From a virus, in the IMG/VR virus record IMGVR_UViG_3300029266_000261, positions 1 through 30,311 of that record: a DNA stretch of 30,311 nt. The stretch is one strand, 5' to 3'. The notes beneath the pieces were generated by a model that saw only the letters and a list, made by a program, of their open reading frames with translations, was not told where the DNA came from and did no database searches. Both the position numbers and the translations under genes were made by a program. Of this stretch, positions 3,698-26,039 are shown one piece after another. Each line of letters starts with the position of its first letter. The stretch's first letter is position 1.

Positions 3698-4258
3698 TTA
3701 TTTTTTTCCTTTCTTAGACTTCTTGCCCCAAGACTTACCTCGACCCCTTTCTTTACAGGCTGCGGGTGTTGGTCGGCAAGAAGGATATTTGGAGCGCTTC
3801 TCGCCCTCTTTACGACCGCAAGATTTACACTTACCTTTTCTGCAAGTGTTGCAATCAACCCAGCCAGAGGAAGAACCTTTGCCGCCTTTGCGTCCGAACC
3901 AATCTTTTAACGAGGATTCTTTACTAGATTCAGTGCCGGCTTTCTTTTTTTTTTCAGAAACGACTGCTTGATATTCTTCTTGAATAATCTGTCGTAGACG
4001 ATCATCTATTTCCAAGCCCTCTTTCTTTTTGGACTTGTTGCCCCAATTGGCAGCACCAACTTTGCGGCACTTTACAAGGGCGCCGCTAGCATAAGCAGAA
4101 GGCCACACGTCGTAACGTGCCTTCACTTTGTGATAGCAGGCATCTTTCTTTCCTTTAGATTTCTTTTTCTTCTTCTTTTTTTTCTTCTTTTTCTTTTCGT
4201 CTAACTCGACTTCTTCTTCGTTAAGAGAGACTTCATCAAATTCGTAGAGTTCTTCCAT
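3698..4258 (-). CDS. Poly-lysine, cysteine-rich two-module phage protein
   Basis: 186 aa from the ATG at 4258; a GTG at 4276 would add six residues and overlap the nuclease stop as GTGA, and the choice is open. The acidic start (MEELYEFDEV, then EEEVELDE) runs into twelve consecutive lysines (4160-4195). Next comes a module with CYHKVKARYDVWPSAYASGA and KCRK; this sequence recalls the small DUF5872-type domain of phages and giant viruses, from memory only. After a second acidic helix ending SEKKKKA comes LKDWFGRKGG and a four- to six-cysteine module (CNTCRKGKCKSC, YPSCRPTPAACK) with a very basic tail. Function unknown; virion or nucleic-acid association is plausible from charge. It sits directly between the nuclease and the 166-aa relative. 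Confidence 0.6.
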   Translation of the reverse strand: MEELYEFDEVSLNEEEVELDEKKKKKKKKKKKKSKGKKDACYHKVKARYDVWPSAYASGALVKCRKVGAANWGNKSKKKEGLEIDDRLRQIIQEEYQAVVSEKKKKAGTESSKESSLKDWFGRKGGKGSSSGWVDCNTCRKGKCKSCGRKEGEKRSKYPSCRPTPAACKERGRGKSWGKKSKKGKK

Positions 4259-4263
4259 GTAGA

Positions 4264-4270
4264 TAAATAG
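4264..4270 (-). promoter_or_regulatory. CTATTTA motif (candidate late-promoter element)
   Basis: Minus-strand CTATTTATC a few bases before the ATG at 4258. It is the same heptamer found upstream of several virion genes, but here it is too close to this start to drive it with a normal leader; it would fit the GTG or the next gene better, or be chance. Confidence 0.25.
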
Positions 4271-4272
4271 TG

Positions 4273-5238
4273 TCACCTATCATTACATTCCCTAGAAATT
4301 TTATTCAAGAACACCTTAAGTTCTTCCCAGTTTAATTCTCCAAAGCCATCGTTCATCATAAGCTTCAATAGCTCAGTTTTATTGAAGTTACACTCAAAGT
4401 TATCAAGTGCATAGTCAATAGTCTGCTTACCTTGAACTGAGATGAGTGGAGAATACAACTGCATCATCTGATAGTTGTGCTCAATTATCACTTTTGACTC
4501 TGCGATGTTTTTATAGACTTTTAGTTTTGAGTCTATGTTCTCGCAGTATTCAACCAACTCATCGATGGTCACATCTCGGTCTTCGCTCATAAACTGAAGC
4601 TTGTTAGCGATTGTCTTCATCCCAACACGACTAACACCGGGAAGGTTATCACTTGTGTCCCCAGCCATTGCTCGGGCGAGAGCCATATTTGTTGGATGAA
4701 TCCCGATGTTTTCTAAAACGGTTTTCTTGGTTTCTATTTTATCTGTAATCGGGCGATAAACTACAGTCTCATCATTGCAAAGCTGTAGGAAGTCTTTGTC
4801 GTTTGAGACAATGACCTTCTGCCACCCTTTATAATGTGGAGAACCACACACATAAGAGATGATGTCGTCTGCCTCGACCCTTTCCAAGACAAGTTGAATG
4901 ATAGGCATCTGATTAAAATATTCAATAATCTGCATCTGCTGCCAGACTTTGTTCTGTAGCTCTTCGTTCTCTGTCAGGTTATGGACAGAACGATTCAGGC
5001 GTAGTGGCTTACGCCCATCTTTGTAGGACGAGTTCATCGCCTTTCTTTTTTGAGATCCGTTCGGTCCATCCCAACAGATTACAATCTCGTTTGGCTCGAT
5101 CATTCTAACAAGCTTTTGTAAGATCTTTATCGAACCTTTGATTCCGCCGATTGGTTGTCCGTGGTGGGACAGGCTGGGATCGACAATAAACGCCCTCAAA
5201 AACATATTCAATGCATCTATTACTAGAACTCTTTTCAT
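4273..5238 (-). CDS. rnh: RNase H / 5'-3' exonuclease (FEN-like flap nuclease)
   Basis: 321 aa, close to T4 RNase H (305 aa). It removes RNA primers and flaps from lagging-strand DNA. Metal-binding acidic residues are in place: D8 in VIDALNMFLRAF, D57 in ICWDGPNG, EADD at 122-125, SNDKD at 145-149, and the helix-hairpin/H3TH stretch GDTSDNLPGVSRVG at 193-206. The ATG at 5238 has GGAGG six bases upstream, but that GGAGG is the 3' arm of a 12-bp hairpin, so translation from read-through mRNA is probably restrained. It follows the recombinase gene by 43 bases. The symbol follows the T4 name and is by analogy. Confidence 0.88.
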   Translation of the reverse strand: MKRVLVIDALNMFLRAFIVDPSLSHHGQPIGGIKGSIKILQKLVRMIEPNEIVICWDGPNGSQKRKAMNSSYKDGRKPLRLNRSVHNLTENEELQNKVWQQMQIIEYFNQMPIIQLVLERVEADDIISYVCGSPHYKGWQKVIVSNDKDFLQLCNDETVVYRPITDKIETKKTVLENIGIHPTNMALARAMAGDTSDNLPGVSRVGMKTIANKLQFMSEDRDVTIDELVEYCENIDSKLKVYKNIAESKVIIEHNYQMMQLYSPLISVQGKQTIDYALDNFECNFNKTELLKLMMNDGFGELNWEELKVFLNKISRECNDR

Positions 5239-5244
5239 AGATTA

Positions 5245-5274
5245 CCTCCACCCTGTAACATAACAGGGTGGAGG
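5245..5274 (-). promoter_or_regulatory. 12-bp hairpin sequestering the Shine-Dalgarno of the nuclease gene
   Basis: Arms 5245-5256 and 5263-5274 are perfect inverted repeats (CCTCCACCCTGT / ACAGGGTGGAGG) with a 6-base loop. In mRNA the 3' arm ends in GGAGG, placed six bases before the ATG at 5238, so the ribosome site is paired. No U-tract follows (TAATCT then ATG), which argues against an intrinsic terminator. Confidence 0.75.
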
Positions 5275-5285
5275 CACCTTGTCAA
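5257..5285 (-). promoter_or_regulatory. Sigma70-like promoter whose -10 box is the hairpin loop
   Basis: Minus strand TTGACA (5280-5285, overlapping the recombinase stop codon) then 17 bases then TATGTT (5257-5262). The expected transcription start near 5250 lies inside the 3' arm of the hairpin, so transcripts from here would lack the 5' arm and have a free GGAGG. The stretch CTCTTGACA is shared with the promoter of the ssDNA-binding protein gene. Confidence 0.65.
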
Positions 5286-6409
5286 GAGGTTTCGTCTGCT
5301 TCATAGAAATCAGAAGCAGAGCCTTCACGCTTCTCAAACTTCTGGACTATAACCTCATCCATAAAGTCCATTACGTGCTGCTTAAACTCGGGATCCCCAT
5401 TAAGAGTATCAACCCATTTGCTAGGCTGGAATTTCTTTGAGTAGCCATTGCGCTCAAGTGTATACCAAGAGCCGGCGACAGTCATAAAGCTCTTAAGGGC
5501 TTCAAACCAACTTTCTTCATCTTGGACACCAATTGATTCGGTTCCCCATAAGATGCGGAATGTACAAGTTCTACCCTGTGTTCCAAAACGAGACTTTTCA
5601 AGTTTGACCCTAACCTCTGAACCAATGCGGAAGCCGTTGTCATCAAGCACATAGGCTGCCTTGCTCTTGCGGCCTGTAAGCCAGATACGAAGAGAATAAG
5701 CATAGTGCATAGCCTTGCCGCCAGGAGTGGTGTAAGGCGTTGTCATTAAAATCTGGCGAGCCATTGGTCCCTGTGGAATGTTGGTCTTCAACTGGTTGAG
5801 AACAAGGAATGTGGCTTTCTTGTCAGCAAGTGGAATAACCAACTTTGACATCGCCTTCGCAAGAATACGCGCTTTGACAGCGAATGATGATTGGGGGTTA
5901 AAATCTCCTTCCACATCAGATACTGCTGGAGTAAAAGCAAGAGAGTCCCAAATAAATAGCAGTTGTTCATCGGCTGCTCCCAAAAGTTCTTCTATGGTCT
6001 CTAATACAAACTCAACAGACTGCGCTTGGATATACATCATCCCACCCAGATCACAGCCAGCTTTCTCCAAGAAAGTAGGATCAATTGCTGACTCGGAATC
6101 AAAGTAAATTACACCAATTCCCATCTTCTGTGCGTTCGCGGCACATTGTGCTGCCAAGAAAGACTTGCCTGTTGATTCCAGCCCAGCTAACTCTGTTATC
6201 TTACCGACAGGAATACCAGCATATTTTCCCTTACAAATGATTGAATCCAGCCAACGAGAACCTGTTGGGATCCACTGTTTTACTTCTGTGGGGTTGTCCT
6301 TTCGTAGATCATGGGCAACATTGCGCCCAGCTTTCTTATTTATCATTGCCCGCATTGCGCTCATATCTACGCGACCGGCTTTGACTTCCTTCTCTTTCTT
6401 CTTAGCCAT
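5282..6409 (-). CDS. uvsX: UvsX/RecA-like strand-exchange recombinase
   Basis: 375 aa, near T4 UvsX (391 aa). It forms ATP-dependent filaments on ssDNA for recombination-dependent replication and repair. Walker A is GLESTGKS at 76-83, the catalytic-glutamate region is YFDSESA at about 102-108, Walker B is LLFIWDSLA at 150-158, and the L2-side stretch LNQLKTNIPQG is typical of the family. The N-terminus is basic (MAKKKEKEVK). It has its own promoter (6472-6501) with a leader of about 55 bases, just after the terminator of the ssDNA-binding protein gene. No uvsY-like mediator is recognisable in the window. Confidence 0.9.
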   Translation of the reverse strand: MAKKKEKEVKAGRVDMSAMRAMINKKAGRNVAHDLRKDNPTEVKQWIPTGSRWLDSIICKGKYAGIPVGKITELAGLESTGKSFLAAQCAANAQKMGIGVIYFDSESAIDPTFLEKAGCDLGGMMYIQAQSVEFVLETIEELLGAADEQLLFIWDSLAFTPAVSDVEGDFNPQSSFAVKARILAKAMSKLVIPLADKKATFLVLNQLKTNIPQGPMARQILMTTPYTTPGGKAMHYAYSLRIWLTGRKSKAAYVLDDNGFRIGSEVRVKLEKSRFGTQGRTCTFRILWGTESIGVQDEESWFEALKSFMTVAGSWYTLERNGYSKKFQPSKWVDTLNGDPEFKQHVMDFMDEVIVQKFEKREGSASDFYEADETS

Positions 6410-6471: not shown

Positions 6472-6501
6472 ATTATAGCACAAAACTGCTACGAGAGTAA
6501 A
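6472..6501 (-). promoter_or_regulatory. Sigma70-like promoter for the recombinase gene
   Basis: Minus strand TTTACT (6496-6501), 18-base spacer, then a perfect TATAAT (6472-6477). It directly follows the terminator hairpin at 6508-6531 and precedes the recombinase ATG (6409). Confidence 0.65.
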
Positions 6502-6531
6502 GCAAAACCCCCACCTTTTTACGGGTGGGGG
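6498..6531 (-). terminator. Intrinsic terminator after the ssDNA-binding protein gene
   Basis: Hairpin of eight base pairs, CCCCCACC (6524-6531) and GGTGGGGG (6508-6515), loop of eight, followed on the minus strand by TTTTGCTTT. It lies 23 bases beyond the stop at 6555. Confidence 0.85.
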
Positions 6532-6554
6532 CAGACTGGAGCATTGAGCTTTTA

Positions 6555-7463: not shown

Positions 7464-8327
7464 TCAGCGTTTGCTGTCAAGTGCTTTTTGTCCTTGAATG
7501 AAATTTGTGTGAGCGAGACAGAACCCGAAGTCGGTTTCGTAGGGTGACTCGTAAATTCCATAAGTCACATTCTTGAAAGCATTTCTTGGCTTTTTCTTTA
7601 GGCTCTCGACTATTCTGGAATGTAGCTTCCCGTCGTTCTCAAGCCGCTCACTTGCTACACATAAATAGTAGCAAACATCACGATCTTCCTCAAGTTTATA
7701 ATACCATTTTTCAGATAGTTTATCTACCGAAATCACTCCCACAGAACGAATTTTCTGGACCTCTGACGGCTTTGATAGATTGCCAACGAGGGGCGAAGTG
7801 TGCTCAAAGACATTGAGATAATGAGTGGCATAATAGATGCTCTTGTTTATCGTCTCAAAGTATTTTTTTATTGGGATCTCGCCTATTGTCTTTTCAAGGG
7901 CTGGGTTTGACAGGATGGTAAGGCTGCTAAACAACCCTGATCTAGCATATTCTTGTAGAATGCCAAAGATTGCGCGCTCTTGTAATTTAGTGTCACCGAT
8001 AAGAAGATCGACATCTGGTTTAATGTAGAAGACATCTATCTGTCTGTCTCTTACCTGCTGTAAAATAGCAAGCGTGTAGTTCGCGGAGAAAGATGAGCCA
8101 CATAGGAACACTTGAACCCTGTCTTGAACTGCTGTAAGTGTCTTGTAAGAAGATAGTTTCGGTGCCTGTTCCTCACAATCTTCTGCTTTGGCCACTTTTG
8201 GCAGCTTTCTATTGTATTTTGTGTTCTCTTGGTCTTCCGAAAAAAGGAAGACATTATACTCTTTGTGGTTCTCAAAGAGAGAAGCCACATTACATCCCGC
8301 ATCGCCTATTCCAAAGATCGAAATCAT
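7464..8327 (-). CDS. Divergent FtsZ/tubulin-like protein, function unknown
   Basis: 287 aa. The start ISIFGIGDAGCN (2-13) has the shape of the FtsZ T1 nucleotide loop after the first strand (IGVGGGGxN). Further on, IDVFYIKPDVDLLIG and a helix-rich segment with LTILSNPALEKTIGEIPIKKYFETINKSI match, in order and spacing, the FtsZ stretch from the T5 loop through VDTLIVIPNDKLL to helix H7. But the signature loop GGGTGTG is replaced by about FSANYTL near residues 79-87, so GTP binding or hydrolysis is doubtful. The FtsZ C-terminal half is poorly matched. ATGA overlap with the polymerase gene suggests co-expression with replication. It might act in DNA positioning, inhibit host FtsZ, or be an unrelated Rossmann-like protein. 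Confidence 0.45.
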   Translation of the reverse strand: MISIFGIGDAGCNVASLFENHKEYNVFLFSEDQENTKYNRKLPKVAKAEDCEEQAPKLSSYKTLTAVQDRVQVFLCGSSFSANYTLAILQQVRDRQIDVFYIKPDVDLLIGDTKLQERAIFGILQEYARSGLFSSLTILSNPALEKTIGEIPIKKYFETINKSIYYATHYLNVFEHTSPLVGNLSKPSEVQKIRSVGVISVDKLSEKWYYKLEEDRDVCYYLCVASERLENDGKLHSRIVESLKKKPRNAFKNVTYGIYESPYETDFGFCLAHTNFIQGQKALDSKR

Positions 8328-9514
8328 AGCTTCAGATCCTTCATTGTCCCGTAGGTCTTTCCTGCTTTAGTGTTGGCCATAAACCTTCCCAGTTTATTAT
8401 TTTCAAAAATTGCTTTAAACTCTGGTATTCTTTGCTTATCTTCTTCTGCTAGATCCAGAACGATTTCGTCGTGGACTATAAACGCAACCTTCGAGCGCGA
8501 ACCCTCCAAAGCCTTGTCAATGGCGACTGCCCTATCAAGTGTCAAGTCAGATGTCGTGCTCTGGATTAGATAACTCAGAGCCTTGCGCTGATCTACCTCA
8601 ATGTGTCTCCCCGTTGGAGTGTTAATCTTACCGTCCTTGTAGAACTTTGAAAGCACGCCTTCTCGGCTATAAACGGAGCCGTTGAGCGACATATCATTCA
8701 CATTATAGAGGGTCGCAAAGAACCTTACCTTCGCCTCTTGGCGATCTACTGGGGAGCCTCCATATAGATGCCGCATATTCCAATTATGGATGTCCTCCTG
8801 CGGCTGCTCGTGACCGGAAAGGGACAGGAAGGTCCTCACTTCTGCGCCATTATAATCTAATGACAAGAACCAGTCATTCGTTGGCTTTATGAGTTCTCGC
8901 AGCTTTGACTTCATAGTGAGGATCGGATTACTATCCCTATGGGTCGTAAGGCGCCCTGTAACAGTTCCAAAAAGATTATAGCTCACATAGTGTGACTTAC
9001 TTTTTACAAGTTTCTTAATGTCCTCTCGGTCGCTTGTGCTGGTCATAAGGTGGCGGCAGCCATCCACATTGATGTTGAGTTTCTGGTAGCTGATCTTGTG
9101 GATAAGCTTGTAGATGTTATCCAATTGATGATAGTTCTTCGGCTGTTCGTAATTTTCAAAGATGTGCTGGGTGATCTTGTTCCGAACCTCGCAGAACTCC
9201 ATCAAGAAATCTGATGGGACTAGATCAAAGAAACAGTTCTGTCGCAGATCAATGCGTGCTATCTTAAGCGATAGCAGATAGGCTTTGAAGGTTTTCTGAA
9301 CCTCTGCTAGTTCTTCTTTTAAGCTCTCGGGACAAGCCTCTTGTAAGTTCTTACCGCCGGCGTAGAGCCAAGCATATTCTACATTGGGATCCTGAACGGA
9401 TCCTGTGTATTTCCACGTCTTGGTCAATCCGTCAGGGATGCCCTCAAAATGAAGGTTCCCATCAACATAAACACCGACACATTCTGACTTGTCATCAAGT
9501 GTCTGGAAAATCAT
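8324..9514 (-). CDS. Family A (Pol I-like) DNA polymerase, polymerase domain only
   Basis: 396 aa. Template-directed DNA synthesis. Active-site motifs are complete: TVTGRLTT (R188), motif A LSLDYNGAEVR (D220, E225), motif B with R258, K262, F266 and Y270 in the RxxxKxxxFxxxY spacing, Q318 in SYLIQSTTSDL, and motif C VHDE (348-351 region, D349 and E350). About 150 residues precede the palm and show no DEDD-type 3'-5' exonuclease motif; neither neighbour supplies one. Typical phage polA proteins are 550-700 aa. T4 relatives normally use a family B polymerase, so this is unexpected beside gp32-, gp41- and UvsX-like genes. It starts by ATGA overlap with a presumed virion gene, and no promoter is evident nearby. 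Confidence 0.85.
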   Translation of the reverse strand: MIFQTLDDKSECVGVYVDGNLHFEGIPDGLTKTWKYTGSVQDPNVEYAWLYAGGKNLQEACPESLKEELAEVQKTFKAYLLSLKIARIDLRQNCFFDLVPSDFLMEFCEVRNKITQHIFENYEQPKNYHQLDNIYKLIHKISYQKLNINVDGCRHLMTSTSDREDIKKLVKSKSHYVSYNLFGTVTGRLTTHRDSNPILTMKSKLRELIKPTNDWFLSLDYNGAEVRTFLSLSGHEQPQEDIHNWNMRHLYGGSPVDRQEAKVRFFATLYNVNDMSLNGSVYSREGVLSKFYKDGKINTPTGRHIEVDQRKALSYLIQSTTSDLTLDRAVAIDKALEGSRSKVAFIVHDEIVLDLAEEDKQRIPEFKAIFENNKLGRFMANTKAGKTYGTMKDLKL

Positions 9515-10689
9515 GTGTCCTCTCTAAGTCTCTGTGCCTTTACAAGATAACTCAAGGATCCTCTGTAGTCAAACGGCTGGTTTACATAACGCTCAAAAAC
9601 TCCAAGCGCGCGGCGATTGTCTGATGATCTTGAAAGTTGTAGGCAGTCCTTGATAATCCTTTGCTTCTCGGCGTTGCTGAACTGGCTTTCTTCTTCTGAG
9701 AATCTGAGAGCAAAATAGAACTTTAAGAAAAAATCATTTGAGAACTTTTCTTGTAATGACTGAAGTGTATAGCGTTCGGTGATTACGATCTTGGGGCCAC
9801 ACTCATCAAATGTAGGAATGTGTGTTGGAACCACTTCGTTGTAGAGTCTTAAGAGTCGTTGGGTCATTTGATTATAGAACCTGTTATGAGTTGTAGAAAA
9901 CCCTAGTGCTAAAATTGCGCTAGAACTTCTTAATCCATAACTGCTAGCATAACCCTTCATTGCTTCTGAGTCAATGTCGGCGATCAGTCTCCACGGAGCA
10001 CCGATGTCGATCATAAATCCATAAGAATTACAAGCATTTACATAGAACTCCCAATTTTTGCTATTTACAAAATCATTTATTTTTTGATCGTCGTTATCAT
10101 AGGGCAGATCAGCAATCTCAAGAGCAAGTCCACTATTTGTAAGATTATTTAATCTACTTTTTGTATAAGCTGGCATTGACATCGGAAAAGTTCTTGTTAT
10201 ATTAGTGACTGTTGATAGGAGTTCTTTTATGAATGTTTGAAAGTTTTGAATATTACTAACATTCAAGTTTGTTTTGAGAGCTTTAATAAAATTAACTTGA
10301 TATTCTTCATAGCTAATGTTATTATCTTTATAGCTTTTATAGACTTTTAAATTAGTAAGGTTAGGATCGTTAGAATAAATTTTGCCTGATTGTTCTGCTT
10401 TCTTAAACTGCTGAGCCAATGCTTCAAAGGCATCTACGACAAATCCTATTGCCTGGATGTTTTGTCTTGGATTGCCTGAGCTTATAAAGTTTTTGAATGT
10501 TATTAGACTTGAATTCACAGCCACTGGGATGTAGGATCTGTCTACTTTTCCATAAAGAGCTTTTTCAGCAAAATTAAAATCTATAAGGTTTGGATAATCT
10601 GTCTTAAGAACATCAGAATTATAGATGAGCTTTTTGTTGAATAATTCAAGGGAGGTTTCATTGTTGTTTTCTTTATAAAATGTTGACAT
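9511..10689 (-). CDS. Presumed virion/baseplate-associated protein, unknown
   Basis: 392 aa, not recognised. The ATG at 10689 has AGGAG eight bases upstream and sits one base after the stop of the 1141-aa gene; a longer in-frame start would overlap that gene and lacks support. The protein is Asn/Ser/Tyr-rich with mixed helix and strand, has no signal peptide or membrane segment, and carries the distinctive stretch GFMIDIGAPWRLIADID at about residue 230. Position at the end of the baseplate cluster suggests a virion component, but that is context only. Its stop overlaps the polymerase ATG (ATGA), tying polymerase translation to it. Confidence 0.6.
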   Translation of the reverse strand: MSTFYKENNNETSLELFNKKLIYNSDVLKTDYPNLIDFNFAEKALYGKVDRSYIPVAVNSSLITFKNFISSGNPRQNIQAIGFVVDAFEALAQQFKKAEQSGKIYSNDPNLTNLKVYKSYKDNNISYEEYQVNFIKALKTNLNVSNIQNFQTFIKELLSTVTNITRTFPMSMPAYTKSRLNNLTNSGLALEIADLPYDNDDQKINDFVNSKNWEFYVNACNSYGFMIDIGAPWRLIADIDSEAMKGYASSYGLRSSSAILALGFSTTHNRFYNQMTQRLLRLYNEVVPTHIPTFDECGPKIVITERYTLQSLQEKFSNDFFLKFYFALRFSEEESQFSNAEKQRIIKDCLQLSRSSDNRRALGVFERYVNQPFDYRGSLSYLVKAQRLREDT

Positions 10690-10690
10690 C

Positions 10691-13600
10691 TCAATCTCCT
10701 GTTTGAACGCTTTCGGCGACAAATTTTTGGACAAAAAAATCAAAAATCTCATCAGTCAGTCTGTTGTCTTCTGGAGAATTTTCTTGTAATGAAGATTTTC
10801 TTTTTGAAGTCGCACATTTCTTTGGCTTGTCTTCTGAGTCGTCTATAGTTGGTTTTCTGCTATTGTTATCTGCGTTTCCGCCTCCAGTGTCAGCGACCCA
10901 CTTAGCAGTGATCTTAGTGTCTGCTTTACCGGGACCTATAGAATGCTCTGATCTGGTGATCATATAATAGCCACCAATACCAAACTGAGTGAAATCGTTA
11001 CCATTCTTGTCCTTTGTCATCTCTGGCGAAAATCCTCTAGGATCTACATAAATGTAGGTTCCGGGGAATGTGTGTAGATTTAGGAGACAATCAATGTTGG
11101 CATTATAGACTTCTCTCAACTGGGTCAATCCGTCAAAACCTTCTTGTTCAAAGCGAAGCTCTTTCAATCCGGTCATATCAGTTCTGTCAAGAGAAATGTT
11201 CTTTACAACCCCCCTGTCCTTACCTAAGATGTAATGAAAAATCCCATTCTCAGCGTCGTCTTGTTCGTTGCCTGTCATCTTTCCTACAGGATAAGACCGC
11301 CCCGCATAAAAAACGTAATAGTTTATTTCTCTATTTGGCTGTGCCATAGACATTGGAAAACGAGAAGGGCCAGAAACATTTATTACTGGTTTTATTGTTC
11401 TAGCTCTAGGGTCACTTAGATTAAAAATATTTCCGGCACCAATTGTTGTTGGATTTCTTTTAATAAAATAAGAAATGTCGTCAGTCTCAGTTTTATTTTT
11501 TGCTCTTTTGAAACCAGTTATTACTGAACTATTGAGTCTAACTCTTTGTTTAGTGTTGAAAGCGAAACAACTATCATTATTTATAAAATTGCGAATTAGT
11601 TCATTTGTTATGTCTTTAATAAAATTTGTTATAGGATAATAAGCTTGATCTTTGCTTAAAACTTTTTCAGTCAAAAAACCTATAAAATAGTTAAGAGAAA
11701 TCGGAATGTTTCCAATTGAACAAAAGCTTATTTTGTTTTCGTCAAATGGATCTTTAACTTCCATTGGTCCAAGAACAATTCTTAGTTTTTTAAATTGCTC
11801 CTTGGCTTTCATAAGTTTTTCAATCTCTTTCGCTACTGAAGTCTTTTTTGCTATAATTGCGCTGGTGCCATTATTATAATTTATAGTTTCTGTGACCGTC
11901 ATTGTCTCTAAAAACTCTTCGTATTGTTTCCTGACACTAGAAAAATCAGAACTTAGTTGCGCTTCATCATAATAATTTAAAGCTTCTTTGTTGTTATCTT
12001 TAAGTTCACTTGTCAGCGTTTCTAATGATTCTTCAATGTTTTGCATAATCACATCAATTAAATCAGAGATATAGAAAAAAGAAATCTTATTTGAGTCTCT
12101 TGAATTAGAGACCAAAGAGACTTGCAGTCCACCAATCTTATCTTTGTTATCCTTTTCTACGCTGCTAAGTGCCTTCTTGAATTGATCTCTTAGTTTTTGA
12201 ACATTCGGGCCATTATCGTTAGTGGGCTTAAGAGCGACGCCCTTGGGCAGCTTTCCTGTTCGCAAAAAGTTAGAAATCTGGTCGTAGCTAAGATTGTAAT
12301 AAAAGATTTTATTTTGTTTGTTCAATTGGGTTATAATTCTAGCAAAGCTTTGTCCTTTTTCTTGCTGAATAAATTGGGCGTCTCCTTCTTTTGCATTGGA
12401 GATGGCATCAGATTCACAATTTTCGTTATTAAGAAATTCGTAAAATAACTTTCTTCCAATCCTGTTTCCCTCGATCCCAGGAGAACTAAAAATATTAAAC
12501 ATTGAGTTGTTAAAATAATCCTCTATGTAGGCAAGATAATTGATATCAAAAACAACACCGCCCATCTCATCAAAAGAAAACTCGTGGGTTGTCGGGGTTA
12601 AATTGATGTTTATAAAAGAGTCGTTTATCGCTTCTTTTTCAGATTTTGTAAAAGTTGAAAGATAATTTTGAGGGATCGCCCAGCCCATAACAACCTTTAG
12701 TCTAAAGTTTAGCTTGTCAAGATTGTCTTTTTGAATAGAACTCATATTTGTTCTCAAGTCTTCGGGCGTCCGCCCGGTCTTAAGAGCAAGATCTGCAAAC
12801 TTGTAATTTGCGATTGGTCTATCTCCCTTGAAGTCTTCAGAAACTGCCGTGTAATCTCCTCTTCTATCTTGAATCAAGTCTCCAAAGCTTGTAGCAAAGA
12901 TGCTTACCTTCGCTTCAATTGCCTTCTTAGCTGCGAATGGGTCAGATCCGTGGAAAGTGAAATTGAAATTCTTAAGTCCAACGCCCACTCCGCGTTTTTT
13001 GCTGCTGTTGAATAAATCAAGGGCGCTCTTACCGCCAGCATAGGATTTGACGGCAGGGTTTGTGTCAAACTTTATCTCAACATAGCCAACATCCTTGCCA
13101 GTGCCCGGATCAGTTTGAACTTTGTAAAGCTTTATCATTGGAACAAGGGAGGACAATTTATCTGTTGTAAGATTGAACAGATTCTTAGAATATGGCGCCT
13201 GCGTCAGCCTGTTGATAAACCCAAATGGCTCATCGTAGATTAAGATTGGAGCATTGCTGTCTATCGTTTTAGTCTCTTGCCTGAATTCCCCTTCTTGAGC
13301 AAGAATATCAATTTCAGTCATCTTGACTGGTGATATCTTTAAGGCATAGGGAAGGCGAGGACTGTGTTCTTTTCTTTTTAGTTCTATCAGAGGTGTTAGC
13401 TGAGAAAGGAGAAAGCATTGCTCTTGATAGATTGCTTTGTCTACGTTTTCAAATTGAACTCCAGCCATCCTGCTCTCTTTGGTGGCGGCTTCGCCTTGTC
13501 TGGCTCTCTCCCTCGCATTTTCATCATCAAAGGTGTTAAGTAAATTTTCTAAAGAACCCTGGTTTCTTCCGGTCGTAGCGACGCCGACTTGTTCGTTTGC

Positions 13601-19388: not shown

Positions 19389-22202
19389 TCAATCGTCAAA
19401 TGATGCGCCGGTAGAGGCCACCACAAAGTCAATTGCGATGTATTCAATGGCGCGAGCGGGTTTGACCATAATCTTGGCATACATAATGTTCTGATCAATT
19501 AGGTCGGGGGTAGTTGTAGACTCATCAAGAATGAGGCGGTAGTCAGAGACACCGAACTGAACCTTGACGTTTGCCAAGAACGGCTCAACTAGGCCCTTAA
19601 AGCGGTTCCAAGTTGCCTGTACATTCTGCTCGAAGAGAATCTGCGTAGAGATAATAGAAATTTGCTTCTTGAGGTAGATAACCAAGCGACGAACATTGAT
19701 TCTGTCTAGTGCTGATGAGCGCTCCTGTAGAGTTTTCTGACCGAAGACTACAATTCCGCTACTTGGGAAGCTGGCAATCGGGTTGATGCGGGCTTCGTAA
19801 AGTGTGTCGCGTTCTTTAGAAGTCAAGCGTTGGGTAACATTAGAAACCGGAATTCCTGCTGCGCCATCTGACAGTCCGCCACGGTTGAAGCCCGCTGGAG
19901 CAAACCAAACCTGTGATTGTTTCTCAGAGGACGCCAAGACACCCATCATTGCGACAGAAGGTGGAATCCAGAGAAGCTGGCCAGTTGGGGCGTCTGTGGT
20001 CTGAACCCAGGGGAAGAATGTGGCTCCGTAAGAGGAGTCTATTTGGCGAGTGCGGAGTGCGTTAGCAGAAGCTTGCGCATCACCCACAACCCTTGCCTGC
20101 TTTGAACTCTTAAGTACTTCGGCAGCCGGGATGTAGACATTTGGCAAGTCGATAAGAGCCAGAGCGTCTGCGCGCTCTTCACACAACTCTACCATTCTAG
20201 TGGTCAAGCCAGTGTTTGTAAGGCCCGGTGAAGCTAAGAGGTTCATGTCAATAAATTCTGGATCTGCCACTGTGTCTATTGCTCTCTTCATAGTGTTGAC
20301 AGCATAGTTGGTTAAGTCAGTGCCTGAAGCTAATCCAATGTTGTACATTGGGTCTGGCTTGGTAATGTCAAAGCCATCAAATCCTCCCCACATTGGGGCA
20401 GTGAAGCGATTGTGTCCGACGTCCAGTAATGCAGAGGCAGATGCTACTGCTGTGCGGCTTATTCCGAGGACACGAGAACCAGAAAGATAGTAGACGTTGG
20501 AGCCGCTAAGATAGACATCATCCATAGTGAAGATGTAGGAGTAATCAGCATCGCCAGTAATTCCGGGCCACTGTCTGTGGGGATCCGCCACACTCATGTC
20601 AGAGGTAGTGCTAGTTGCTTTTCTTGTTGTTTGCATTCCGAAGTAGGCACTTCTTCTGTCAGCGATGCCTCCATCTGAAGCCGAGTGGCGCAATCTTACA
20701 GCAGGCCAAGTAAATGAACCGGTGAATTGCACACCCCCAGTTAAGAAGCCTTCAACACCATAAACCGAAGATGTGAGCACCATGACATTGCTTAGGTCTT
20801 CTGCTGCTTCGGGGCCGCTATAAGTGAGGCCCTTTACGCCTCCATAGCGAGGGGCACCATAATAGCCGAATGGAAGAAGGGTCGCGTCCGTAGCCCCTGC
20901 TTCTACATCAGAATTCATGACGACATAGACATATTTTGAAAGATTGCCGTAATCACCATATTCTCTCAACCTGCGCTCTGCCTCAACCCATTCATAGTAG
21001 GAGTCTCCAATTCTTTTGGCGATAAAATCTGGAGAGCTTGGGTTTAGTGTTAGATTGTCGAACCTTTCGAGCACAACCACCCTGTTGTCAGTGTCTGCGA
21101 GGCTTCTTAAAACAATCGAGAATGTTCCGTAATCTGAAGTTCTGGTTGAAGAAGGTTTGATTTCCTCAATAGAAACTTTTACATTCTTATTAAGCCACTC
21201 GCTGTGTCCACGATCTTTTAGATAGAATAGTTTCTGCGCACCCTCTGGGGTGTAGCTAGCTGGAAGCCCTAAGTCTTGCCCGATGAACCAGCCAGTGCGA
21301 CCTTTAAGATCTGTTATTCCGGTCATGTCTGAAGGTGCGGCAGAATCGTTCTTTAGCGGCAATATTACACCAAAAGAATTGGCTGGAACTCCAGAAGTGC
21401 TTCCAGTTATAGAAGAGGTTATTCCATCACGAACTTCTTGCTCAAAAGTCTCACCAAGCCAGTAAGCTTTTTGAGAAGCAGCAGGATAGAATGAAGTGGC
21501 TGTTGAGTTGCCAAGCTGTGGGTTGGTGTTGAACACCTTGCGAATAAACTTGTCTGAAGAATCGTCAAAATTAAACGTAATCTTTTCTTCTCCAAGAGAA
21601 GAGGTAATGAGGACTGTAAATTCGCCAGCTTCTTGGGTTATAACTCCACCGACTGAGGCGGTTCCGACACCAGATTTGGTTAGAGCGAATGAGCCAGTTA
21701 ATAACACGGCGGCGTCAGTGTCTAGGTACCAAATTGCTGCCAAAGAGCCTGTGCCTATTTCGGCGGTGGTGCCAGAGTTGAACATCCAGAGCCCATAAGC
21801 ACCGCCATTGTCAGCAAGAGCGGAGGCGGGAGTTTTAGTTGTAGCCCAGCCATTTTCGCCAGCAGCAGTTTTATTTAGATTTTGCTCGCCCAAGAGGCGA
21901 ACATAGGTCAGAGGAGCGACATTCGCGTTTAAGAATGCCTTGGCAGCGTAGGTGCCGTACATTGGGGACTGGAAGTTGCCATCACGATAGATGTCTCCAC
22001 CACCATTTCCGGGCACTGTGTCGCCGAAAACCTGAACGAACTCTGAGTATGATTCCACCTTGATTGGTTGCATGGCAGGACCTCTCGTGGCTCTACCAAC
22101 TACAACTGGACCAATAGCGTCGGGCCGGCGCGGACGAAACGAATTATCAATTTCGTTGATAAACACACCGGGAGACACAAATTTAAAGCTTTTTACTGAC
22201 AT
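19389..22202 (-). CDS. Contractile tail sheath protein, T4 gp18-like
   Basis: 937 aa, much longer than T4 gp18 (659 aa). The N-terminus, SPGVFINEIDNS then GPVVVGRATRGPAMQPIKVESYSEF, is the classic sheath start. The C-terminal part, INVRRLVIYLKKQI then FEQNVQATWNRFKGLVEPFL and RLILDESTT, is the conserved sheath core. The extra length is in the middle (about 150-480), presumably surface-exposed insert domains rich in Gly/Ser/Thr. Two CTATTTA motifs lie upstream; SD is AGAGAGG about nine bases before the ATG. Confidence 0.92.
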   Translation of the reverse strand: MSVKSFKFVSPGVFINEIDNSFRPRRPDAIGPVVVGRATRGPAMQPIKVESYSEFVQVFGDTVPGNGGGDIYRDGNFQSPMYGTYAAKAFLNANVAPLTYVRLLGEQNLNKTAAGENGWATTKTPASALADNGGAYGLWMFNSGTTAEIGTGSLAAIWYLDTDAAVLLTGSFALTKSGVGTASVGGVITQEAGEFTVLITSSLGEEKITFNFDDSSDKFIRKVFNTNPQLGNSTATSFYPAASQKAYWLGETFEQEVRDGITSSITGSTSGVPANSFGVILPLKNDSAAPSDMTGITDLKGRTGWFIGQDLGLPASYTPEGAQKLFYLKDRGHSEWLNKNVKVSIEEIKPSSTRTSDYGTFSIVLRSLADTDNRVVVLERFDNLTLNPSSPDFIAKRIGDSYYEWVEAERRLREYGDYGNLSKYVYVVMNSDVEAGATDATLLPFGYYGAPRYGGVKGLTYSGPEAAEDLSNVMVLTSSVYGVEGFLTGGVQFTGSFTWPAVRLRHSASDGGIADRRSAYFGMQTTRKATSTTSDMSVADPHRQWPGITGDADYSYIFTMDDVYLSGSNVYYLSGSRVLGISRTAVASASALLDVGHNRFTAPMWGGFDGFDITKPDPMYNIGLASGTDLTNYAVNTMKRAIDTVADPEFIDMNLLASPGLTNTGLTTRMVELCEERADALALIDLPNVYIPAAEVLKSSKQARVVGDAQASANALRTRQIDSSYGATFFPWVQTTDAPTGQLLWIPPSVAMMGVLASSEKQSQVWFAPAGFNRGGLSDGAAGIPVSNVTQRLTSKERDTLYEARINPIASFPSSGIVVFGQKTLQERSSALDRINVRRLVIYLKKQISIISTQILFEQNVQATWNRFKGLVEPFLANVKVQFGVSDYRLILDESTTTPDLIDQNIMYAKIMVKPARAIEYIAIDFVVASTGASFDD

Positions 22203-24979: not shown

Positions 24980-25022
24980 AAAAAGACAAACAAAAGCCCC
25001 CCATCTTGGTAGATGGGGGGCT
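24980..25022 (-). terminator. Strong intrinsic terminator after the 52-aa gene
   Basis: AGCCCCCCATCT-ACCA-AGATGGGGGGCT, a perfect 12-bp stem (24995-25022), followed on the minus strand by TTTGTTTGTCTTTTT. An outer 10-bp inverted repeat (24982-24991 with 25034-25043) could extend the stem up to the stop codon. Confidence 0.9.
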
Positions 25023-25836: not shown

Positions 25837-26039
25837 AATAATTTCTCCTTTATAATTGTGTTATTGCAATAACTCGATTTATTCAATGATTTTATACCAG
25901 CCACCTCGGTATAAGATCTTTCTGTGGGCAGTGGCCTCGCCCAAAGGAGAACATCTCAAGTTATTGTAATTAGTTACTTAAACGCAAAAAACCCCCCTAC
26001 CAAAGTAGGGGGGTTTTAAGTTTTAGTGAAAGCCGACTA
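25837..26039 (-). other. 203-base intergenic region between capsid and 207-aa genes
   Basis: Holds the capsid terminator (25984-26017), a possible 26-codon micro-ORF (25879-25959), and a perfect 14-bp palindrome GTTATTGCAATAAC (25860-25873) close to the ribosome site of the 207-aa gene. No clear sigma70-type promoter and no CTATTTA motif were seen here. Confidence 0.6.
25984..26017 (-). terminator. Strong intrinsic terminator after the major capsid gene
   Basis: Inverted repeat AAAACCCCCCTAC / GTAGGGGGGTTTT (25988-26000 with 26005-26017), a 13-bp stem with a 4-base loop, followed by a T-run on the minus strand. It lies 23 bases beyond the capsid stop at 26040. Confidence 0.92.

Follow-up and report, generated by a model that had tools for sequence, protein, structure and literature searches.

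We analyzed a 30,311-base fragment of an uncultured marine phage (the whole of which we call the window), in which tail, head, and replication genes lie on the minus strand. The replication region encodes, in order, a gp32-like protein, a uvsX/RecA-like recombinase, a 5'-3' exonuclease, two small genes, and a DnaB-like helicase. The recombinase gene (5282-6409, minus strand; 375 aa) matches Pfam RecA (4e-33) and the UvsX-like PHROG (1.6e-60), and the exonuclease gene (4273-5238, minus strand; 321 aa), which is the gene whose control concerns us here, matches Pfam 5_3_exonuc_N (4.3e-27) and a PHROG exonuclease family (3.3e-28). Searching the exonuclease against bacterial and archaeal genomes returned no relative. 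Upstream of uvsX, a promoter scan gave a candidate promoter, TTTACT-N18-TATAAT (6472-6501, minus strand), which we propose as the source of read-through transcripts, and a terminator scan found a hairpin resembling an intrinsic terminator in the interval that separates uvsX from the gp32-like gene (6507-6532, minus strand). On the minus strand between the candidate uvsX promoter and the exonuclease gene, the same scan detected no terminator-like site, so read-through messages would be expected to reach the exonuclease gene.

Two further stretches of the window are of separate interest. At 8324-10752 (minus strand), a family-A DNA polymerase signature is confined to the C-terminal part of a 396-aa ORF, and no family match was obtained for the neighboring ORF of 413 aa, suggesting that two genes may between them encode the polymerase. 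Within an ORF at 3698-4276 (minus strand), whose protein matches PHROG 727 (function unknown), about 130 bases (4021-4155) share 71-79% DNA identity with 227 cyanophage records, in which the matching genes are annotated as hypothetical or structural. The remainder of the 2.6-kb query around this stretch had no such cyanophage match among the records listed.

The junction between the recombinase and exonuclease genes reads ...CTCTTGACAAGGTGCCTCCACCCTGTTATGTTACAGGGTGGAGGTAATCTATG... on the minus strand, and within about 50 bases it combines a promoter-like sequence with a hairpin (all coordinates below are on this strand). A -35 hexamer, TTGACA (5280-5285), within which the TGA stop codon of uvsX falls (5284-5282), is followed by a 17-nt spacer (5279-5263) and a -10 hexamer, TATGTT (5257-5262), with a TG one base upstream as in an extended -10. 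Starting 7 nt past the uvsX stop codon, 12 of the 17 spacer bases form the 5' arm of the hairpin (CCTCCACCCTGT, 5263-5274). This arm pairs perfectly over 12 bp with the 3' arm (ACAGGGTGGAGG, 5245-5256), so that the hairpin spans 5245-5274 and its 6-nt loop is the -10 hexamer itself. The 3' arm includes the ribosome binding site of the exonuclease gene, with the Shine-Dalgarno sequence GGAGG (5245-5249) separated by 6 nt from the ATG (5238), and the 5' arm is thus an anti-Shine-Dalgarno strand. Judging from the position of the -10 box, transcription from this promoter is predicted to start at about 5250 (5248-5252), which would give the short mRNA a leader of about 12 nt (UGGAGGUAAUCU-AUG). A preliminary description of this DNA had called the two genes a recombinase and a nuclease, had drawn a perfect 12-bp hairpin over the GGAGG of the nuclease gene, and had recognized its loop as the -10 hexamer of a TTGACA-N17-TATGTT promoter; the anatomy given here agrees with that description and with its coordinates.

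The hairpin stands out from the sequence around it. The window contains three separate perfect hairpins of at least 12 bp with loops of 3-10 nt, compared with none in 60 dinucleotide-preserving shuffles, and on this count, together with the shuffled-spacer controls described below, we reject a chance origin. The other two, of 12-13 bp (24995-25022 and 25988-26017), are both terminator-like, and the one at 25988-26017 was scored as a terminator on both strands. As a 65-nt RNA, the junction folds at -35.2 kcal/mol (z = -6.6), and none of 200 shuffles folded as well. Rfam gave no match to any described RNA family up to E=1, and we accordingly rule out a described family as the identity of the hairpin. 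The predicted accessibility of the GGAGG is about 0.0001 in the long RNA versus 0.65 in an RNA starting at 5250.

To place the nested promoter among others of its kind, we turned to a 191-kb relative (G001), which carries 57 TTGAC[A/T]-N17-TAxxxT sites where 4.75 are expected. Most of these lie at 0-60 kb before small genes, with others again near 180 kb in the replication region; promoters of this early/replication type cluster away from structural genes. The gp32-like and uvsX genes carry a promoter of the same kind. By its sequence, then, the nested promoter is of a sigma-70-like class that appears also to serve other early or replication genes of the phage. A T4 late promoter is ruled out, as there is no TATAAATA box at the junction and that word occurs at chance level in the window. 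These observations bear on a T4-style temporal switch, in which an early upstream message would be silent, the nested promoter would fire later, and the hairpin would delay the exonuclease. The anatomy is that of T4 e, soc, 49, I-TevI, segB, and Aeh1 mobE, whose downstream promoter is late; however, the -35/-10 pair here is like those of the early/replication promoters that cluster away from structural genes, and it is of the same kind as those of the gp32-like and uvsX genes, with no mark of later firing. We therefore regard a switch in time as rather unlikely, and since the nested promoter shares its class with the other early/replication promoters, we prefer a reading in which the hairpin insulates the exonuclease from its upstream neighbor.

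Closure by the promoter's own spacer is not a general habit of the promoters of this phage: among 31 promoter-Shine-Dalgarno-start units in G001, the exonuclease unit is the only one that owes its closure to its own spacer. At 21493-21544 of the same genome, the ribosome site of another start is predicted to be almost inaccessible once 80 bases upstream are folded with it, and there the promoter spacer is not the cause. Between about 35 and 56 kb of G001 (loci L207-L208), small genes are preceded by early-type promoters, TTGACA-N17-GGTTACATTAcaagaGTAAC, that form a dense array in which a GTTAC...GTAAC inverted repeat spans the -10 box.

Searches of IMG/VR with the exonuclease and the recombinase found many relatives. 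In a near clade, with recombinases about 82-96% identical, the -35, the -10, the hairpin, and the Shine-Dalgarno sequence recur in register, and we aligned 30 distinct 50-base cassettes of this clade (alignment A2). TTGACA is invariant, the five bases separating it from the stem vary, and relatives have TATATT, TAGATT, TACATT, or TATAAT as the -10 box in the loop. All 12 positions of the 5' arm are conserved or altered jointly with their partners, a constraint that a promoter spacer alone would not impose. Pairs change from A-U to U-A (L005, L006, and L098), from C-G to G-C (L013 and L014), and from C-G to U-A (L003, L046, and L116); the tenth pair is found as U-G, U-A, C-G, or G-U, and two-sided (compensatory) changes occur at 5 of the 12 pairs. 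Paired cells amount to 98.0%, versus 94.1% in shuffles, and 0 of 500 shuffles were as high on any measure, with the qualification that the sequences are related, which inflates the covariation counts and means that the permutation counts are not independent probabilities. When the partner was slid by one column, a control that keeps the relatedness, pairing fell to about 50%. The group of L013 and L014 carries CG where the extended -10 has TG, yet it has kept the stem, so promoter sequence alone cannot explain the conservation. Stem mismatches are present in some relatives (L003, L016, L031, L035, and L044).

The same alignments speak to a DNA operator, in which a dimeric regulator would bind the palindrome that spans the -10 box, with RNA pairing as a by-product. 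The center of the palindrome is indeed the -10 box, and symmetric changes in an operator would resemble compensatory pairs. However, wobble cells number 44 G-U versus 2 A-C in the near clade, which includes the window, and 70 G-U versus 16 A-C in a more distant one. This asymmetry points to RNA pairing on the coding strand, as an operator offers no reason for tolerating G-U on one strand alone. Loop length and stem sequence moreover vary between the clades, and the stem of the distant clade is anchored on the ribosome site and not on the -10 box, all of which makes an operator very unlikely.

In the distant clade (recombinase about 75% identical), TTGAC[A/T]-N17-TAxxxT is found again at the post-uvsX junction, and the spacer again carries a Shine-Dalgarno complement, with other sequences and larger loops (for example, GCCCTTCTACAA with TTGTAGGAGGGC in L154). 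Our promoter filter was passed by 102 of 131 distinct post-uvsX sequences, including four that we discounted as CTGACA matches within the next coding frame, and 29 of the 131 pass none. Among 91 non-identical cassettes, the spacer-to-leader stem beats 99% of shuffled spacers in 55 and covers the ribosome site in 71. For 84 cassettes, the ribosome site has a median predicted accessibility of 0.001 in the long RNA; the value is 0.31 when the spacer of that RNA is shuffled and 0.58 in the short RNA. Those cassettes that lack the main motifs of the window clade go in the same direction (medians of 0.20 in the long, 0.37 in the shuffled, and 0.63 in the short form). Some junctions retain the promoter with little pairing (L122, L340, L346, L350, L387, and L416). 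These poorly paired junctions, the mismatched stems, and the 29 sequences that do not pass the promoter filter indicate that the arrangement is not indispensable. The hairpin might also be a stabilizer of the uvsX mRNA 3' end or an RNase III site that hides the ribosome site as a side effect, and its start 7 nt past the uvsX stop would suit such protection or processing. We find this highly improbable, given that in both clades the Shine-Dalgarno sequence is what anchors the stem and that shuffled spacers rarely close the site.

Parts of the distant clade fit a different reading, in which the hairpin would serve as an intrinsic terminator, or else would attenuate the uvsX message, and would house a promoter. 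A U-tract lies right behind the stem in L125, L303, L305, L306, L364, and L374, two of which (L364 and L374) resemble terminators, and the ribosome site lies outside the stem in L312, L313, and L374. In the cultured Microcystis phage Mel-JY01, too, a terminator-like hairpin separates the recombinase and exonuclease genes. Against this reading, no U-run comes after the stem in the window or in its close clade, where UAAUCUAUG or a similar sequence stands instead, and the terminator scan did not score the window hairpin. We accordingly reject an intrinsic terminator in the window and consider this explanation of the junction improbable overall. Those relatives with a U-tract at the junction hairpin would probably terminate transcription there and so reach the same insulation by another route. 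In the cultured Flavobacterium phage immuto, the recombinase and exonuclease genes overlap, which together with the hairpin of Mel-JY01 suggests that this junction has been solved in several ways.

The gene behind the cassette also differs among distant relatives: it encodes the exonuclease in L125, L148, and L312, UvdE in L126, a dCMP-deaminase-like protein in L124 and L342, and a pyrimidine-dimer glycosylase-like protein in L282. In three relatives, a GIY-YIG/NUMOD3 homing endonuclease gene is inserted directly after the hairpin cassette (L040, 2123-3001; L055, 2105-3001; and L078). The insertion point is the start codon of the exonuclease, which in these phages uses a new ribosome site, and two others (L001 and L033) contain apparent decayed remnants of the insertion. 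The adjoining of segA and uvsX in T4 is comparable (PMC2988022).

From these findings, we think it likely that the junction is a cis-acting, gene-specific translational insulator of the exonuclease with a promoter nested inside it. Messages from the uvsX promoter would cross the junction without terminating, and their long leader would hold both arms, so that the 12-bp hairpin whose pairing is supported by covariation could form and, by analogy with the known T4 cases, shut the ribosome site of the exonuclease. Polymerase starting from the nested TTGACA-N17-TATGTT at about 5250 would begin inside the 3' arm; the resulting short message would lack the 5' arm, could not form the hairpin, and would expose the GGAGG 12 nt before the AUG. 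With the long message closed and the short one open, the exonuclease would depend for its level on its own promoter and not on the recombinase message, and the uvsX message could still serve genes farther downstream. Opening of the stem by the ribosome that terminates on uvsX would be possible only for the lowest pairs, since the stem, 7 nt past the stop, lies at about the edge of the ribosome footprint. The likeliest role of the arrangement is to shield the exonuclease from uvsX read-through. The preliminary description had already suggested that read-through mRNA hides the site and that a transcript from the nested promoter would be without the 5' arm, and had named stem covariation in relatives as a check. 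That covariation is present, it supports the hidden site together with the predicted accessibility, and the promoter-like sequence and its predicted start agree with the proposed layout. In view of the covariation, the deep recurrence, and the predicted accessibility, a T4-like logic is well supported as the mechanism, with a predicted start site and a presumed effect on translation.

More tentatively, we propose that a widespread family of marine phages may carry a fixed 'insulated promoter' behind uvsX, in which a sigma-70 spacer doubles as the anti-Shine-Dalgarno strand. The cassette would stay and the gene behind it would be exchanged (exonuclease, UV endonuclease UvdE, deaminase, pyrimidine-dimer glycosylase, or homing endonuclease), with lineages alternating between a translational block and transcription termination for the same insulation. 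The junction would place the read-through-silencing logic of T4 outside the T4 late system, with an ordinary bacterial-type promoter and in 50 bases, and it suggests that hairpins hiding a ribosome binding site can act as insulators instead of timers, and that a single junction design is able to host various DNA-repair genes. The many natural variants in which both sides of a pair have changed offer ready test pairs for measuring how well a hairpin insulates neighboring genes.

The trick of silencing read-through messages is itself already known from phage T4. In T4 gene e, as in soc and 49, long transcripts fold over the ribosome site and a promoter in the 5' strand yields a short translatable mRNA; in gene e, the DNA that encodes this strand of the hairpin contains the late promoter (PMC3014915). 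I-TevI, segB, and Aeh1 mobE have layouts similar to that of gene e (PMC3014915, PMC2988022), and all six share this logic, each with a late promoter (PMC2988022, PMC3014915). The fusion of hairpin and promoter, earlier put forward as a novelty of this junction, is therefore not one, since T4 gene e, I-TevI, segB, and Aeh1 mobE are already so laid out. The likeness that had been drawn to T4 e, soc, and 49 stands for a ribosome-site hairpin with a nested promoter and not for an early/late switch, as the promoter here is sigma-70-like. T4 depends on a late TATAAATA promoter and on gp55, whereas the junction described here has a sigma-70-like promoter that overlaps the preceding stop codon with its -35 and supplies all of the loop with its -10, and its client is a DNA-repair gene instead of a late gene. 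As in the T4-type class of hairpins, the Shine-Dalgarno sequence lies inside a stable stem and the promoter's transcript, from its predicted start, would lack the 5' arm; the junction would thus work like the T4 systems but falls outside their class, because its promoter is not of the late type and has no TATAAATA. I-TevI, I-TevII, I-TevIII, segB, and Aeh1 mobE likewise combine a hairpin with an internal promoter for an endonuclease within another transcription unit (PMC2988022). They differ from our case in that the client here is a core exonuclease with an early-type promoter, and in that a GIY-YIG endonuclease is inserted just behind the cassette in phage relatives. New at this junction are a sigma-70-like promoter whose -35 overlaps the stop codon and whose -10 box fills the loop completely, and a core repair gene as the client. 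New as well are covariation this deep and a design that recurs with various genes behind it. The closest functional parallel is the fold-back of IS10 and IS50, in which read-through messages hide the ribosome site of the transposase and messages from its own promoter do not, with insulation as the function; there the arrangement is found at transposon ends, whereas here it occupies a fixed phage gene junction. The PeSL cassettes of T4-type phages, reportedly described in a 2010 study by Arbiol et al. that PMC4177764 cites, are said to consist of a short promoter and a stem-loop at places where the neighboring gene varies. The junction has a promoter-like sequence, a stem-loop, and a next gene that varies among relatives, and may be akin to them in this, but its promoter and stem-loop are nested rather than adjacent and are anchored on the Shine-Dalgarno sequence.
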